Positions 229 to 52,113 of a stretch of 52,113 nucleotides of DNA are shown here, one piece after another. The position numbers and the translations under genes were made by a program. Position 1 is the first letter of the stretch. Each line of letters begins with the position of its first letter. Source of the DNA: Nitrospira sp. (GTDB taxonomy: Bacteria > Nitrospirota > Nitrospiria > Nitrospirales > Nitrospiraceae); contig SPAX01000021.1 in assembly GCA_005239475.1 (NCBI GenBank), forward strand, positions 8,019 to 60,131. The letters run 5' to 3'. Below the pieces are notes generated by a model. It was not told the origin of the DNA, searched no databases, and saw only the letters and a program-made list of their open reading frames with translations.

Positions 229-423
229 GGAGTCTGCGGAAAAACTATTGTGGCACGGTGGAAATTCGATGATCCGCACGTCTAGGACAATAGGAGAACC
301 GCGCGAGACTGGCGGGACGGACGAGACGGGGAGTCCACTCGGTCTACGTCGCGCCTTTCTCGCACGTCGCGCTCGTCACGCGCCACGGTGCGTGGCGCTG
401 GAGGTCTTTTTCAGCAGACTGCT
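229..423. repeat. Inverted-repeat element at the 3' end of panB
   Basis: The left end (AGTCTGCGGAAAAAC) and the reverse complement of the right end (AGTCTGCTGAAAAAGAC) form imperfect terminal inverted repeats of about 17-20 bp, and the right end touches the panB stop codon. An inner hairpin CGCCAC-ggtgc-GTGGCG is visible near 388-404. Each arm has an A5 or T5 run beside it, so folded RNA could end transcription from either side. The arms resemble those of the 126-bp elements at 6958 and 51869, but this copy is longer. No ORF inside looks real. Confidence 0.6.
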
Positions 424-6215: not shown

Positions 6216-6824
6216 TTACTCAACCACCACTACCGTCACCTCCGCCCGTTCATTCGGAAGGTCGCGGCTGTTTTTCGGCAAACTGACAATCTTGTCCGCC
6301 ACCTCCATCCCCTTCACCACCTCGCCAAAGACCGTATACTGCCCATCGAGAAAATTCGAATCCTTGACGACAATGAAGAACTGCGAACCGGCACTGTTGG
6401 GATCGCTCGTGCGCGCCATGGAGAGAATCCCTCGTCGGTGAGGAATGTCGTTGAACTCAGCCTTGAGCCGCTGACTCGGCCCACCCTGACCGTAGGTCTC
6501 CGGCTTATTCAGATCTTTAGTGTTGGGATCGCCCCCCTGGATCATGAAACCTGGAATCACCCGATGAAAGATTGTTCCGTTGTAGAAGCCGGATGTCGCC
6601 AACGCGATGAAATTCTCAACATGCTTGGGCGCCTTCTCAGGGAAGAAGACGATATCCATGTCGCCAAACTTTGTTTTGATAATGGCCTTGGGACCTTTCG
6701 TCCCTTCTGCTTTCCCCGCTGGAGCCTTGTCAGCTGCAAAGAGGGCACCCATACCCAGCAACAGACTCCCACCGAGCACGAGCGTCACCGCCACCATTTT
6801 CACCATGATTCGTCTCTGCATCAT
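6216..6824 (-). CDS. Cyclophilin-type peptidyl-prolyl cis-trans isomerase, periplasmic
   Basis: The 202-residue product has a hydrophobic signal peptide ending near ALFAAD without a lipobox cysteine, then the same cyclophilin core as its neighbour: AIIKTKFGDMDI, FHRVIPGFMIQGGDPNTKD, AGSQFFIVV, FGEVVKGM. It is probably a soluble periplasmic isomerase. The track starts at a GTG (6827) that sits against the GGGAGG ribosome binding site; the ATG at 6824 or 6821 has better spacing and 6824 is used here. It is first in transcription order, with the lipoprotein copy just downstream. Confidence 0.9.
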   Translation of the reverse strand: MMQRRIMVKMVAVTLVLGGSLLLGMGALFAADKAPAGKAEGTKGPKAIIKTKFGDMDIVFFPEKAPKHVENFIALATSGFYNGTIFHRVIPGFMIQGGDPNTKDLNKPETYGQGGPSQRLKAEFNDIPHRRGILSMARTSDPNSAGSQFFIVVKDSNFLDGQYTVFGEVVKGMEVADKIVSLPKNSRDLPNERAEVTVVVVE

Positions 6825-6957
6825 CACCCTCCCTGAAATAATGACTGACCCCGTTGTAAAACAATTCTTCCCTGCCGCCTAGCAGGCTACGAAAAAAATT
6901 AGTTTGTACACCATACACGCTGGAATCTTACAGCATAGTCTCACTGTCAACATAGCC

Positions 6958-7083
6958 CTCAGGATGCTCAAAAAGGCCGTCCAGCAAGGCCGCAGCGAGC
7001 GAAGAGGCGAGGCGTACGCTTCGGTACGTTGAGCCTCTGAGCGATGCGAGAACGCCGCTGGCGGTCTTTTTCAGCATCCTGAG
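6958..7083. repeat. Family A terminal-inverted-repeat element, 126 bp, 3' of rnc
   Basis: CTCAGGATGCTCAAAAAGG at the left matches the reverse complement of the right end, CTTTTTCAGCATCCTGAG, and pairing continues into GCCGTCCAGC / GCTGGCGGTC, giving about 27 paired bases. The element ends three bases from the rnc stop. Each arm pairs up to a T5 run in one direction, so it could work as a bidirectional intrinsic terminator between rnc and the cyclophilins. The 51869-51994 element has the same length and ends but different stem sequence. Confidence 0.75.
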
Positions 7084-7086
7084 AAA

Positions 7087-7806
7087 TCAGGTCCCTACCT
7101 GTCGAAGAGCCTGCTTCGCCGCCTGTTGCTCTGCTTCCTTTTTGCTTCGCCCGGACCCCATGCCCACGACCTCGCCTTGAATGGACAGTTCCACCTCGAA
7201 TAACTTCTGGTGGTCGGGCCCTGTTTCTCGAACGGTCGCATAGCGTGGCAATGCGTCATGCCGCTTTTGACACCACTCCTGAAACTGGGTCTTGTAGTCG
7301 CCCGCTCCAGGCTGCTCCTCTTGCGCGGCAATATGCGTGAGTTCCTCTGAGAAAATGTGGCAGGTCACCGTGCGGCTTGCCTCGAATCCTCCGTCAAGAT
7401 GAACCGCCGCAAGCACCGCCTCCAGCGCATCGGCCAACAACGAGTCTTTCTCACGTCCCTTCGAACGATCCTCCCCGCGCCCGAGCTTGAGATGTTCCCC
7501 CAGTCCGAGCCGGCGGGCTACCTGCGCCAACGATGCTTCACTCACCAACTGTGCTTTCAGCTTCGAGAGAGTCCCTTCTGAAGACTGCGGCAACGCAGAG
7601 GCCAGATATTCACTCATCACAAGCGACAACACGGCATCGCCGAGAAATTCGAGCCGCTCATTATGTTGAGGCGAAGCCGTTTTCTGTTCGTTGACGAGAG
7701 AGGAGTGCGTCAAGGCTTCCTCGAGCAAGGCAAGCGCCTTGAATCGATAGCCCAACGAGGATTGGAGCGAGTCGGCAGAAGAAGCTGAAGTCATAGTGAC
7801 GAGCAC
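7087..7806 (-). CDS. rnc: Ribonuclease III
   Basis: Cuts double-stranded RNA in rRNA and mRNA maturation. The catalytic domain carries the signature NERLEFLGDAVLSLVMSEYL with the metal-binding acidic residues, then a second acidic site near DALEAVLAAVHLDGG. A C-terminal double-stranded-RNA-binding domain follows (DYKTQFQEWCQKR to KKEAEQQAAKQAL). The 239-residue length is normal. The track start is a GTG at 7806 with GAGGG very close upstream; an ATG at 7794 (MTSASSADS) is the alternative. It is last in the fatty-acid operon; rnc next to acpP-fabF is a common bacterial arrangement. Confidence 0.95.
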   Translation of the reverse strand: MLVTMTSASSADSLQSSLGYRFKALALLEEALTHSSLVNEQKTASPQHNERLEFLGDAVLSLVMSEYLASALPQSSEGTLSKLKAQLVSEASLAQVARRLGLGEHLKLGRGEDRSKGREKDSLLADALEAVLAAVHLDGGFEASRTVTCHIFSEELTHIAAQEEQPGAGDYKTQFQEWCQKRHDALPRYATVRETGPDHQKLFEVELSIQGEVVGMGSGRSKKEAEQQAAKQALRQVGT

Positions 7807-7844: not shown

Positions 7845-8012
7845 CAGGATGCTCAAACCGCCCGCCAGCCTGTCTTGTTCATTTGGTCTGTTCGGTCTAT
7901 CTGGTCTGTCTTGTTTAATTGGTTTGTTTGGTTTGTCTTGTTTATATGGTTGAACCAGACTATCCGGATAAACCAGATGAACTAGATAAACAAAACAAAC
8001 CAGATAGACCGG
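7845..8012. repeat. Half family A end followed by an inverted iteron array
   Basis: CAGGATGCTCAAACCGCCCGCCAGC at 7845-7869 matches one end of the family A elements but has no clear partner end. It is followed by iterated TTGGTCTGT / TTCGGTCTA / TTGGTTTGT units (about 7880-7950), then complementary ACCAGA / AAACAAAAC units (about 7950-8010). The halves can pair. It fills the space between fabF and rnc; no gene is seen here. Confidence 0.6.
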
Positions 8013-8055
8013 GCTTGTCACAGGCGTGCGACCAGTGAAGTTCTGGCCTACCCAT

Positions 8056-9309
8056 CTAGTTGTTCCGCAGCCGGCTGAAGAGCAGGCAGGCATTGACCCC
8101 GCCGAATCCAAAAGAATTCGATAGCGCCACCGTCACCGTAACCGGTCTGGCCCTGTGCGGAATATAGTCCAGATCGCAGGCAGGATCCGGATGATCCAGG
8201 TTGATCGTCGGAGGAAGTATCCCGTGGTGAAGCGCCAGAACACAAAACACCGCTTCAATCCCACCGGCTGCCCCGAGTAAGTGGCCGGTCATCGACTTGG
8301 TCGAACTCACCGGGATGCGGTAGGCCCGCTCGCCGAACACCTGCTTGATGGCCTTGGTCTCAATCGCATCCGCCATCGTCGACGTACCATGCGCGTTAAT
8401 ATACCCGACCTCGTCCTTGCTGATACCGGCATCCTTGAGCGCCAGCTCCATGCACCGAACTGCGCCTTCTCCCTCTTCAGACGGGGCAGTAATATGGTAG
8501 GCGTCGCTGTTCATGCCGTAGCCGATCAATTCGGCATAGATCCGAACGCCACGCCGTCGCGCATGCTCCAGTTCCTCCAAGACCACGACTCCGGCGCCTT
8601 CGCCGAGCACGAACCCATCGCGATCCTTGTCGAACGGCCGACTCGCTTTCGTCGGATCATCGTTGCGAAACGACAAGGCTTTCGACGCTGCAAACCCTGC
8701 AACCCCCAACGGCGTAATGGCGGCTTCCGCCCCACCCGCGATCATGACATCGGCATCGCCGGCCTGAATCAGCCGATACGCGTCACCGATACAGTGATTG
8801 CCCGTCGCACAAGCCGTCACCGCACAGGAGTTTGGTCCCTTGGCGCCCAATCTGATTGCCACCTGCCCGGAAGCCAGGTTGATAATGGTCATCGGAATGA
8901 AAAACGGTGAGACGCGCCCGGGGCCTTTTTCCTGCAGAATCTTGTGGTAGTGTTCGATCGACCCAAGCCCCCCGATGCCCGATCCGATATATACACCGAC
9001 TTTCGTGGCCTCTTCCGGCGCCACGGTGAACCCCGCATCATCCACCGCCAGCTGGGCAGCGCCCACGGCATAATGGATGAACGTATCCATCTTTTTAATT
9101 TCTTTTTTCTCGATGAACTGGGCTGGATCGAAGTCTTTCACTTCACCGGCGATTTGGGCATCGTACGCCGCAGGATCGAATTTCGTGATTCGACCGATGC
9201 CGGATTCACCGGCACAAATGGCCTTCCAGGTCTTTTCGACACCCGTCCCCAGAGGCGTAATCAGCCCCAGACCGGTCACCACAATCCGCCTGGTCGAACG
9301 AGGACTCAT
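8056..9309 (-). CDS. fabF: Beta-ketoacyl-[acyl-carrier-protein] synthase II
   Basis: Elongating condensing enzyme of type II fatty acid synthesis. From the ATG at 9309 it has 417 residues with the catalytic cysteine in TACATGNHC (C167) and histidines in INAHGTST and [12 protein letters not shown], the usual Cys-His-His triad, ending with NSFGFGG. The track starts at a GTG one codon upstream; AGGA is better spaced for the ATG. It follows acpP by 15 bases and its substrate is the product of that gene. Length and motifs are standard. Confidence 0.96.
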
Positions 9310-16993: not shown

Positions 16994-17099
16994 AAGGAGC
17001 ATCACGTCTGTGCGCGCCGCCGAGCCGGTGAGGCGGCCGGGTCCCCGTTGAGGATTTTGATGAGCTGAGAACGAAGTGAGCCGCCTATTTCAGCAGCCG
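16994..17099. repeat. Family A' element, about 106 bp, 3' of ychF
   Basis: Shares GTGCGCGCCGCCGAG, GTGAGGCGGC and GGGTCCCCGTTGA, plus the end TATTTCAGCA, with the minus-strand element at 30652-30759. The right end touches the ychF stop codon. Inside, GCCGCC and GGCGGC arms can pair. No coding frame is plausible. Confidence 0.65.
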
Positions 17100-17100
17100 A

Positions 17101-18192
17101 TTACACGTTGAAGCGGAAGTAGACGATATCCGCTTCCTTGATCACGTAATCCTTGCCTTCGAGCCGAAACAGTCCCTTCTCCTTCACCTTCGCCTCCGAC
17201 CCGCAGGACATCAGATCGTCATAGTGATAGACCTCGGCGCGGATGAAACCACGCTCCATGTCGGAGTGGATCTTGCCCGCCGCTTGCGGCGCCTTCATGC
17301 CTTTGGGAATCGGCCAGGCCCGGGATTCGATTTCGCCGGCGGTGAAGAAGGTAATGATGTTCAGCAGCGTGTAGGCTTCACGGGTCAGCCGTACAAGACC
17401 CGATTCTGTCAGACCCATCTCTTTCAGGAAGTCGTTTCGTTCGGATTCTGGCAAGGTGGAGAGTTCGGCTTCGAGTTGCCCGCAAATCGTGACGACCCGC
17501 GCGCCACGCGTGTCGGCGAACTCACGAACCATCTTCACCATTGCCTCGTCGGCGCTGACCTGCTCCGACACATTCGCCACGAAGAGCACCGGCTTCGCTG
17601 CCAGCAATTGACATTCATCGAGCACCACACGCTCTTCGGGGGTATAGGTCAGATTGCCCAGCCATTCCCCCTTGTCGAGCAATCCGATCAGTTTGTCTAT
17701 GAACGCCAGCTCAAACGCGGCCTTCTTATCGCCTGCTCGAACTTTCTTTTCTGTCTTTTGCTTCCGCCGATCGAGCGTGTCGAGGTCGGCCAACAGCAAT
17801 TCGGTTTCGATGACGCCGATGTCACGGAGTGGGTTCACCCCTCCGCTGACGTGCACGACATCCGTTCCTTGGAAGCAGCGGACGACATGGAGGAGCGCAT
17901 CGACTTCGCGAATGTGCCCAAGGAACTGATTGCCGAGGCCTTCTCCCTTGCTCGCCCCTTCGACCAAGCCGGCAATGTCGCGGACCTCCAGCGTGCTAAA
18001 GGTCGTCTTCTTCGACTTAAAGAGATCGGTGAGGACTCCGAGTCGCGGGTCCGGCACCAGGGCGATGCCTGTATTGGGATCGACGGTCGCGAAAGGATAG
18101 TTGGCCGCCAACGCGCCGCTACCCGTGAGCGCGTTGAAGACGGTGGTCTTCCCCACGTTCGGGAGTCCGATCATGCCGCAACAGAGTCCCAT
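17101..18192 (-). CDS. ychF: YchF-type ATPase of the Obg/TRAFAC class
   Basis: 363 residues, normal for YchF/OLA1. P-loop GLPNVGKTT (residues 9-17); the usual NKxD guanine motif is replaced by NVSE in LFVANVSEQ, which in this family goes with ATP rather than GTP binding. A coiled-coil insertion is followed by a C-terminal TGS domain (RAEVYHYDDL to VIKEADIVYFRFNV). YchF associates with ribosomes and stress responses. The ATG at 18192 lies in the second unit of a perfect 31-bp tandem duplication and has no good ribosome binding site of its own. It follows pth in a well-known cluster. Confidence 0.95.
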   Translation of the reverse strand: MGLCCGMIGLPNVGKTTVFNALTGSGALAANYPFATVDPNTGIALVPDPRLGVLTDLFKSKKTTFSTLEVRDIAGLVEGASKGEGLGNQFLGHIREVDALLHVVRCFQGTDVVHVSGGVNPLRDIGVIETELLLADLDTLDRRKQKTEKKVRAGDKKAAFELAFIDKLIGLLDKGEWLGNLTYTPEERVVLDECQLLAAKPVLFVANVSEQVSADEAMVKMVREFADTRGARVVTICGQLEAELSTLPESERNDFLKEMGLTESGLVRLTREAYTLLNIITFFTAGEIESRAWPIPKGMKAPQAAGKIHSDMERGFIRAEVYHYDDLMSCGSEAKVKEKGLFRLEGKDYVIKEADIVYFRFNV

Positions 18193-18223
18193 GGAGTCCG
18201 ATCATGCCGCAACAGAGTCCCAT
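18162..18223. repeat. Perfect 31-bp tandem duplication over the ychF start
   Basis: The same 31 bases occupy 18162-18192 and 18193-18223 without a mismatch. On the minus strand each copy ends in ATGGGACTC..., so there are two identical starts 31 bases apart and therefore in different frames. The purine-rich ribosome binding site (GAGGGGGAAGAGAGA) sits before the upstream, out-of-frame ATG, which would give only a peptide of about 34 residues. Confidence 0.9.
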
Positions 18224-18248: not shown

Positions 18249-18347
18249 GGAGGGGAAGCCAGGTTGACCGAGGATACGCGCGTCCAACGAGGGCCTTCCG
18301 AGGCCGCGCGTTGCGCGATCAGCAGGTCAGCCTGGCTCCTCCTCTCC
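18249..18347. repeat. Family B hairpin element at the 3' end of pth
   Basis: The core CGCGCGTCCAACGAGGG ... CCGCGCGTTGCGCGA matches the element at 2129-2219. The outer arms (GGAGGGGAAGCCAGGTTGACC and GGTCAGCCTGGCTCCTCC) differ in sequence from that copy but are again complementary to each other. The right arm extends into the last codons of pth and supplies its stop. Confidence 0.7.
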
Positions 18348-30652: not shown

Positions 30653-30759
30653 CAGGATGCTGAATAAGTCCGCCAGCAGAGTTCTCGCAACGTTCAGACC
30701 GTCAACGGGGACCCAGCCGCCTCATCACTCGGCGGCGCGCACGGACTCAGCCATAGCTG
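30652..30759. repeat. Family A' element at the yggS break point
   Basis: On the minus strand it reads CAGCTATGGCTGAGTCCGTGCGCGCCGCCGAG ... GGCGGACTTATTCAGCATCCTG. It shares several blocks of 10-15 bases with 16994-17099, and its ends are imperfect inverted repeats of each other. One end coincides with the point where the yggS reading frame stops resembling the family. Confidence 0.65.
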
Positions 30760-51868: not shown

Positions 51869-51994
51869 CAGGATGCTCAAACAGGTCATCCAACAAGGCC
51901 GCAGGGAGAATCGAACGGCGAGACGTGCGGCCGTATGCACGTTGAGGTGTTCGATCGACTGAGAACGCAGTTGGGGACCTGTTTCAGCATCCTG
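51869..51994. repeat. Family A terminal-inverted-repeat element, 126 bp, 3' of yajQ
   Basis: The left end CAGGATGCTCAAACAGGTCATCCAAC pairs with the right end GTTGGGGACCTGTTTCAGCATCCTG. It has the same length and outer ends as 6958-7083, but the stem bases differ in both arms so that pairing is kept. The element ends two bases from the yajQ stop codon. Confidence 0.75.
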
Positions 51995-51996
51995 TT

Positions 51997-52113
51997 CTAG
52001 CGGTAGTTGGTGAACTGGAGATCAATTCCAAAGTCTTTGCTCTTGAGAAACGCCATCGCCGCTTGGAGATCATCCTTGCTCTTGCTCAGCACGCGCACTT
52101 GCTCGCCCTGAAT
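51997..52113 (-). CDS. yajQ: C-terminal part of a YajQ-family nucleotide-binding protein, cut by the window edge
   Basis: 38 codons ending in [41 protein letters not shown]. The pattern VRV(T/S)xKxKDDLQxxxxxLKxxDFxxxLQFxNxR is the typical YajQ/UPF0234 end. YajQ proteins bind nucleotides, including cyclic di-GMP in some species, and can act as regulators. The N-terminal three quarters lie beyond the window. Confidence 0.8.

Follow-up and report, generated by a model that had tools for sequence, protein, structure and literature searches.

Several short repeats described in other bacteria resemble the Nitrospira hairpins analyzed here in one respect or another. RUP of Streptococcus pneumoniae, a MITE of IS630-Spn1, is likewise short, multicopy and non-coding, with inverted ends that match an insertion sequence (IS) and a TA-containing target (PMC2229807), but the Nitrospira element has an IS5-family candidate partner, a 4-bp YTAR target and a conserved structured hairpin core. 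YPAL (RU-2) of Yersinia is a palindromic mobile element of ~168 bp with filled and empty sites and possible effects on upstream transcripts (PMC2759123, PMC2229807), and its printed ends ttcagactgctgacaaa and tttgtcaataacctca resemble, by eye, the CAGRCTGYTGACAAA-type IS ends in locus L230 (PMC2759123). It differs in its duplications of 3-26 bp, in that no IS partner is reported and, by eye, in its core. ERIC (IRU) is a 127-bp intergenic MITE with an orientation-dependent effect on the upstream mRNA (PMC2229807), but it is unlike the Nitrospira element in sequence, ends and host group. REP/REPIN sequences, too, are repeats that form hairpins close to stop codons, and some of them influence translation if no more than 15 nt away (PMC12306157), whereas the Nitrospira element is several times longer, has a 4-bp duplication and is without a RAYT link or a GTRG foot of its own. 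Papers on Geobacter also mention multicopy sequences resembling those in many genomes.

The window, i.e. the whole 52,113-nt stretch of DNA that was analyzed, belongs to contig C124 of a 3.56-Mb Nitrospira draft genome. We consider it likely that its hairpins belong to a MITE family, i.e. to short non-coding DNA transposons that an IS5-family DDE transposase mobilises in trans. The two hairpins and their neighbours are as follows:

6216..6827, minus strand: cyclophilin-type peptidyl-prolyl isomerase gene, downstream of copy 1
6879..6882, no strand: CTAG beside the tail end of copy 1, surviving half of the presumed target duplication
6883..6959, minus strand: tail of copy 1; its end is formed by the second terminal inverted repeat, which reads CAGGCTACGAAAAA inward from there
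6960..7081, minus strand: hairpin part of copy 1, 122 nt, sense ends CAGGATGCTGAAAAAG...CTTTTTGAGCATCCTG, 145.7 bits with covariance model R1
7087..7806, minus strand: rnc (ribonuclease III), directly upstream of copy 1, stop codon 7087-7089
51869..51994, minus strand: hairpin copy 2, 126 nt, 106 bits with R1, without a recognisable tail
51997..52113, minus strand: 3' end of the DUF520 (YajQ) gene that precedes copy 2; its TAG stop is at 51997-51999

With the sense orientation defined as CAGGATGCTGAAAAAGTCCGCCAGC...GCTGGACGGCCTTTTTGAGCATCCTG, both hairpins are oriented as the surrounding minus-strand genes, copy 1 starting 5 nt past the rnc stop codon and copy 2 lying 2 nt past the TAG stop of the yajQ-like gene. 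An earlier note on this DNA had pointed to the identical outer ends CAGGATGCT...AGCATCCTG at both places and had quoted the arm sequences correctly, but it gave the two copies the same length, where we find 122 and 126 nt, and its limits for copy 1 (6958-7083) took in two pairing flank bases on each side. The hairpin that it regarded as the element is real but is only part of it: with its 77-nt tail, copy 1 is a 199-nt element (6883-7081) that extends to a terminal inverted repeat followed by CTAG, and the target duplication on the hairpin side has decayed (7082-7086). On both strands, copies 1 and 2 fold far better than dinucleotide shuffles (z from -5.95 to -8.7).

Further copies in the genome, on which the earlier note had made its reading depend, are plentiful. 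Exact patterns match 56 to 65 times in the own genome, so that the pair in the window makes up little of the family. When copy 1 served as the query of a BLAST-type search, at least 41 matches of 90-100% identity were obtained, 40 of which have the full length or nearly so (40 candidates scored). The exact pattern was positive in 31 of 32 genomes of the genus, and the element is present in many Nitrospira MAGs, with tens of copies per Nitrospira genome. Its apparent confinement to one genus was an artefact of a too strict pattern, as the search with R1 found the element in 129 of 296 genomes sampled across the phylum and in 78 of 79 same-family genomes (table count), with up to 116 matches per genome and a weaker signal further out. 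The most distant R1 matches are weak, and one (L364) is unlike the element. In Rfam, curated and permissive, no family matched the Nitrospirota elements above the curated score. The Nitrospira hairpin had no match in plasmids and phages, and a search of the literature on Nitrospira or Leptospirillum repeats and MITEs found nothing on the element and no named repeat.

In its full form the element consists of YTAR, a hairpin of 122-126 nt, often a tail of ~77 nt with an inverted terminal repeat, and YTAR again. Among 92 copies found without using the flank, 65 have CTAG, TTAG, CTAA or TTAA on the hairpin side. Downstream of the hairpin, the ~77 further bases common to many copies end in TTTTTCCGCAGCCTG, followed by CTAG or a variant. 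The reverse complement of this consensus tail end, CAGGCTGCGGAAAAA, repeats the hairpin end CAGGATGCTGAAAAA in inverted form, and the hairpin exists because the element has a terminal-repeat-like sequence together with an inverted copy of it ~100 nt inside. Tail-less copies also occur; one of them, the 165-nt copy in L171, has perfect ATAG duplications.

Comparison of filled with empty sites showed insertion. The filled locus L142 reads ...CTAG, element, TTAGagatag, and the empty L334 reads ...TTAGagatag; L171 reads ATAG, the 165-nt copy and ATAGgaat, against ATAGgaat alone in L296; and L307 reads TTAG, element, cTAGgca, against a single TTAG in more than ten orthologues. At the 3' end of rnc the element was found in 3 of 30 Nitrospira loci (L248, L260 and L266) and was not there in the rest. 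Insertion occurs into an existing NTAG/YTAR site with a 4-bp duplication, which has decayed in many copies, both window copies included. At four loci (L036, L166, L058 and L176) genes lie between two inverted element ends 0.8-1.8 kb apart with CTAG-type flanks; these could be due to chance or could be composite transposons.

Two transposase loci of the genus (L225 and L228) contain an IS of ~1.32 kb with ends CAGGCTGCGGAAAAAC on both sides and with flanks CTAG/CTAA and CTAG/CTAG. The consensus tail end of the element is identical to both ends of L225 and L228, L225 agrees with the consensus tail at 22 of its last 23 positions, and the repeat at the hairpin end agrees with the IS end at 13 of 16 positions (3 differ). 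The transposases of L225 and L228 score 267 and 281 bits against the NCBIfam IS5-family model NF033581 (cut-off 140), as compared with 176 and 182 bits against the IS1182 model, under its cut-off of 270. A related IS (L245), with ends such as CAGGCTGTTGAAAAAC, fits the tails in other genera (L348, L367 and L370). Some IS5-family groups use YTAR targets; a paper search for YTAR use by these groups found nothing. Of the 32 genomes of the genus, 2 contain the best-matching transposase and 9 contain any relative; an obvious partner is thus missing from most genomes that host the element. The earlier remark that no transposase is nearby holds for the transposase families searched, which gave no match on the window's contig, and a search for the best-matching IS did not find it in the whole own draft genome either.

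The element is thus short (122-126 nt, or ~200 nt with the tail), multicopy (tens of copies) and without a transposase gene, its terminal repeats match those of an IS, its 4-bp YTAR duplication is of the type seen at that IS, and the candidate partner is of the IS5 family. The IS5-like ends and 4-bp duplications therefore argue for a MITE (a non-autonomous DDE transposon) and not for a REP element. Judging from the ends and the target, an IS5-type transposase probably moves the element in trans. The notion of a non-autonomous element, already put forward in the earlier note, agrees with the insertion polymorphism, the target duplication and the ends like those of an IS5-family IS. With these data a bacterial MITE family gains a candidate partner, a target and empty-site proof, in a hard-to-grow nitrifier phylum.

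At least four further relatives, all of them decayed or rebuilt, lie elsewhere in the window (about 290-421, 7845-8074, 17009-17100 and 30653 onward):

290..421 (left limit approximate), minus strand: diverged copy directly 3' of the panB stop (TTAG, then CAGTCTGCTGAAAAAG...), core replaced
7845..8074, plus strand: rebuilt copy, left end and family tail retained, flanks CTAA and CTGA
17009..17100 (left limit approximate), minus strand: decayed copy with an alternative core, directly 3' of ychF
30653..30740 (right limit approximate), plus strand: decayed copy with the same alternative core as 17009-17100, preceded by CTAA

In the copy at 7845-8074 the core was swapped for a 119-nt AT-rich inverted repeat (59+59 nt), and the insertion shifted the stop of fabF into the element tail, so that the fabF stop codon (8056-8058) is now supplied by the right end of the element. 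The fabF-rnc spacer received two independent insertions, one at TTAG in sister genome G026 (L307) and one at a nearby CTAA in the window (7845-8074). The copies at 17009-17100 and 30653-30740 have in common the alternative core TCAACGGGGACCC..GCCGCC..CGGCGGCGCGCAC, which suggests a second core type on the same ends.

The position of the element relative to genes is strongly one-sided in two counts, both made over copies that share history and whose tail ends are uncertain where they are tail-less. Of the 61 hairpins taken from the own genome and the genus, 27 follow a stop codon without a gap, their preceding base being the last of the in-frame stop of a long reading frame, as compared with 5 of 61 for the other side (p = 8e-6). 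In G026 (1.2 Mb), with genes from a home-made simple codon-model caller that covered 78% of the sequence, the hairpin end is no more than 10 nt from an upstream stop in 30 of 45 copies and the other end in 5 of 45 (p = 2e-5), and the upstream gene points into the hairpin in 33 of 45. CTAG is rare here: the 1.2 Mb contain 934, with 381 inside genes, 459 in the spaces between them and 92 at stops. A random non-genic CTAG there lies at a stop in ~17% of cases, half per orientation, and the 17 exact cases among the 45 copies exceed this (p = 5e-8).

As the target holds TAG or TAA, an insertion at a stop codon would duplicate the stop and leave the gene intact, and insertions of this kind would survive. 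The target sequence accounts for such harmless insertion at stop codons but not for the orientation, and a palindromic target alone does not explain the orientation bias. We infer that the hairpin-first orientation is preferentially kept because a strong 3'-end hairpin is tolerated or useful; its use could lie in 3'-end protection or in termination at the AAAAAG...CTTTTT stem. Of the earlier idea of a 3'-end device, the orientation-biased site directly past stop codons is real, and the device function is a possible interpretation of the element. The conserved core and the one-sided stop preference make a testable case of a transposon that supplies 3' ends to core genes such as rnc, panB and ychF, and insertion history may shape gene expression in Nitrospira-type organisms.

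The hairpin core is also conserved in its pairing. In alignment A1 (94 diverse copies, mostly Nitrospira) 95.4% of the cells pair, and 53 cells, in 16 pairs, are changed on both sides against 4.8 cells and 3.9 pairs in shuffles; in A2, with 37 copies that represent many genera and several families across the phylum, 82 two-sided cells compare with 15.1, where cells are sequences rather than events and the control is by shuffling, not by a tree. The pair at A2 column 5 is AU in 24 copies, CG in 7, UA in 4 and GC in 2, and AU, UA, GC and CG all occur at column 23; a single pair thus shows as many as four types, which requires more than one independent paired change. The coordinated arm change that the earlier note had seen between two copies is real across the family, and the reading in that note is not refuted by a lack of further copies or, as measured against shuffles, of covariation.

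The outer nine pairs are separated from AAAAAG/CTTTTT by a G-G mismatch (columns 10/120 in A2), which 91 of 94 copies in A1 and all 37 in A2 retain. In the 37 phylum-wide copies GTTCTC, ACGTAC..GTACG and TGCGGCC, the motifs of the loops, hardly vary (1.4-1.8 bits per column), unlike the middle stem (0.56-0.65 bits). Distant copies keep the loop motifs, and their outer stem is lineage-specific. Nearly invariant loops and the G-G mismatch together with covarying stems suggest a selected DNA or RNA fold, and the earlier proposal of selection on structure gains support from covariation at many pairs, from the alternative pair types and from the mismatch. Selection on the core as a fold would preserve the complementarity of the arms even as their sequence drifts. 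In 138 of 145 and in 36 of 38 copies the better fold is that of the strand antisense to the upstream gene, and unmatched changes are more numerous in the internal than in the terminal arm (GU 18 vs. AC 68 cells). This asymmetry and the fold energies point to the antisense strand, but are confounded because the terminal arm is also more conserved; if RNA is the selected form, it may be the antisense strand.

The hairpin may even be a structured RNA/DNA cassette with a function of its own, such as an mRNA 3'-end device or a protein-binding hairpin, with the MITE as its vehicle. This reading is compatible with the one we prefer, and we hold it as a tentative possibility. Loops that are nearly invariant phylum-wide around a variable middle stem, a mismatch kept in all 37 of those copies, the strong bias for one orientation right after stop codons and the better fold of the antisense strand are all in its favour. 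Less easily reconciled with it are the missing Rfam match, the polymorphism of the copies between species (3 of 30 at rnc) and the cores that were swapped for unrelated palindromes with the ends retained (window 7845-8074, L069 and L077). Polymorphic copies and swapped cores mean that no single copy looks indispensable.

A broader version of this view, about which we are rather doubtful, would make the core an ancient structured module of nucleic acid, spread through the phylum and with a binding partner or activity of its own, which would repeatedly gain the ends of IS5-type transposons active locally and be planted after stop codons as a ready-made 3' UTR, and whose apex CCTCACGTAC-loop-GTACGCTCCGG may be shared with E. 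coli qseE-qseG, prophage contigs and sX9. If it is true that the core is shared beyond the phylum, several unexplained multicopy hairpins would be connected. The apical core of L373, a class-level relative, matches E. coli over 46 nt at 87%, with matches in 3034 of 5426 genomes, and the one annotated E. coli match that was inspected lies in the qseE-qseG spacer. Class-level relatives have an apical core similar to the first stem of the Xanthomonas sRNA sX9 (Rfam RF02228), which reads CGUAC..GUAC-CUCCGGUU; the qseE-qseG spacer with this core scores 31 bits against sX9, under the cut-off of 44, and the Nitrospirota elements had no match to sX9. An exact core pattern was found in 13 viral contigs, in most cases inside longer hairpins. 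In another search of viral contigs with a core pattern, none of the 20 matches scored in the covariance model. Model R2, made from the phylum-wide copies, gave only weak local scores for the E. coli and prophage hairpins; homology of the apical core beyond the phylum would thus be a lead that R2 did not confirm.

As separate observations, the long qseE-qseG hairpin (L398:655-780; L399 around 901-944) has an apex that matches the distant Nitrospirota apex, and viral or prophage contigs (L400-L412) contain similar hairpins with different flanking stems.

Complementary arms might in principle be maintained without selection. Template switching during replication is a known mutational mechanism in hairpins and would copy changes from one arm to the other. 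The changes are often adjacent blocks in both arms, and the larger number of unmatched changes in the internal arm would fit as well. However, such switching should erase the G-G mismatch amid covarying pairs, which is kept in nearly all copies, and the internal loops stay asymmetric. We therefore regard it as an unlikely source of the complementarity.

For the origin of the copies, the MITE assignment has to be weighed against a REP/REPIN-like element moved by a RAYT (Y1, HUH), with CTAG as the tetranucleotide at the hairpin foot. A tetranucleotide is found at this place, the own genome has two Y1_Tnp genes, and an element copy in L091 lies ~0.8 kb from a Y1 gene. But CTAG flanks both ends and is single in empty sites, which makes it target and not element, the ends match a DDE IS instead, and in L091 it is another inverted repeat that bounds the Y1 gene; the element flanks neither of the two Y1_Tnp genes in the own genome. 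The 4-bp duplications largely rule out this origin, and we find it very improbable. The Y1 transposase in L091 (1432-2403) has, by eye, a DnaA-like C-terminal helix-turn-helix and is flanked by the inverted repeat GGGGTCATTGCTTGACTTTGCA, a motif that also occurs beside an element copy in L052.

Ordinary intrinsic terminators that only seem repeated through gene duplication are the explanation we credit least: at least five consecutive T in the distal arm (121 of 146 copies in sense, 128 of 146 in antisense) and the position after stop codons would suit them, but orthologous sites without the element, unrelated neighbouring genes and a simple scan that found no terminator around copy 1, where the inter-arm loop is far larger than the scan allows, refute such an origin. 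An intrinsic terminator would have a compact GC stem, a loop of 3-8 and a U tract, of which the element has the U tract, but with a very large loop. Integron attC sites, which are also hairpins after a stop codon, were set aside as unlikely, given the YTAR duplication.

The window contains other repeats as well. An 80-nt repeat, CGCGCGTCCAACGAGGG..CGACCGCGCGTTGCGCGAGCA, is found at 2140-2219 and at 18262-18341, and a very similar sequence forms the replaced core of the element copy in L077 (168 nt). Close to the second of these, at 18162-18223, 31 nt are present in perfect tandem duplication.
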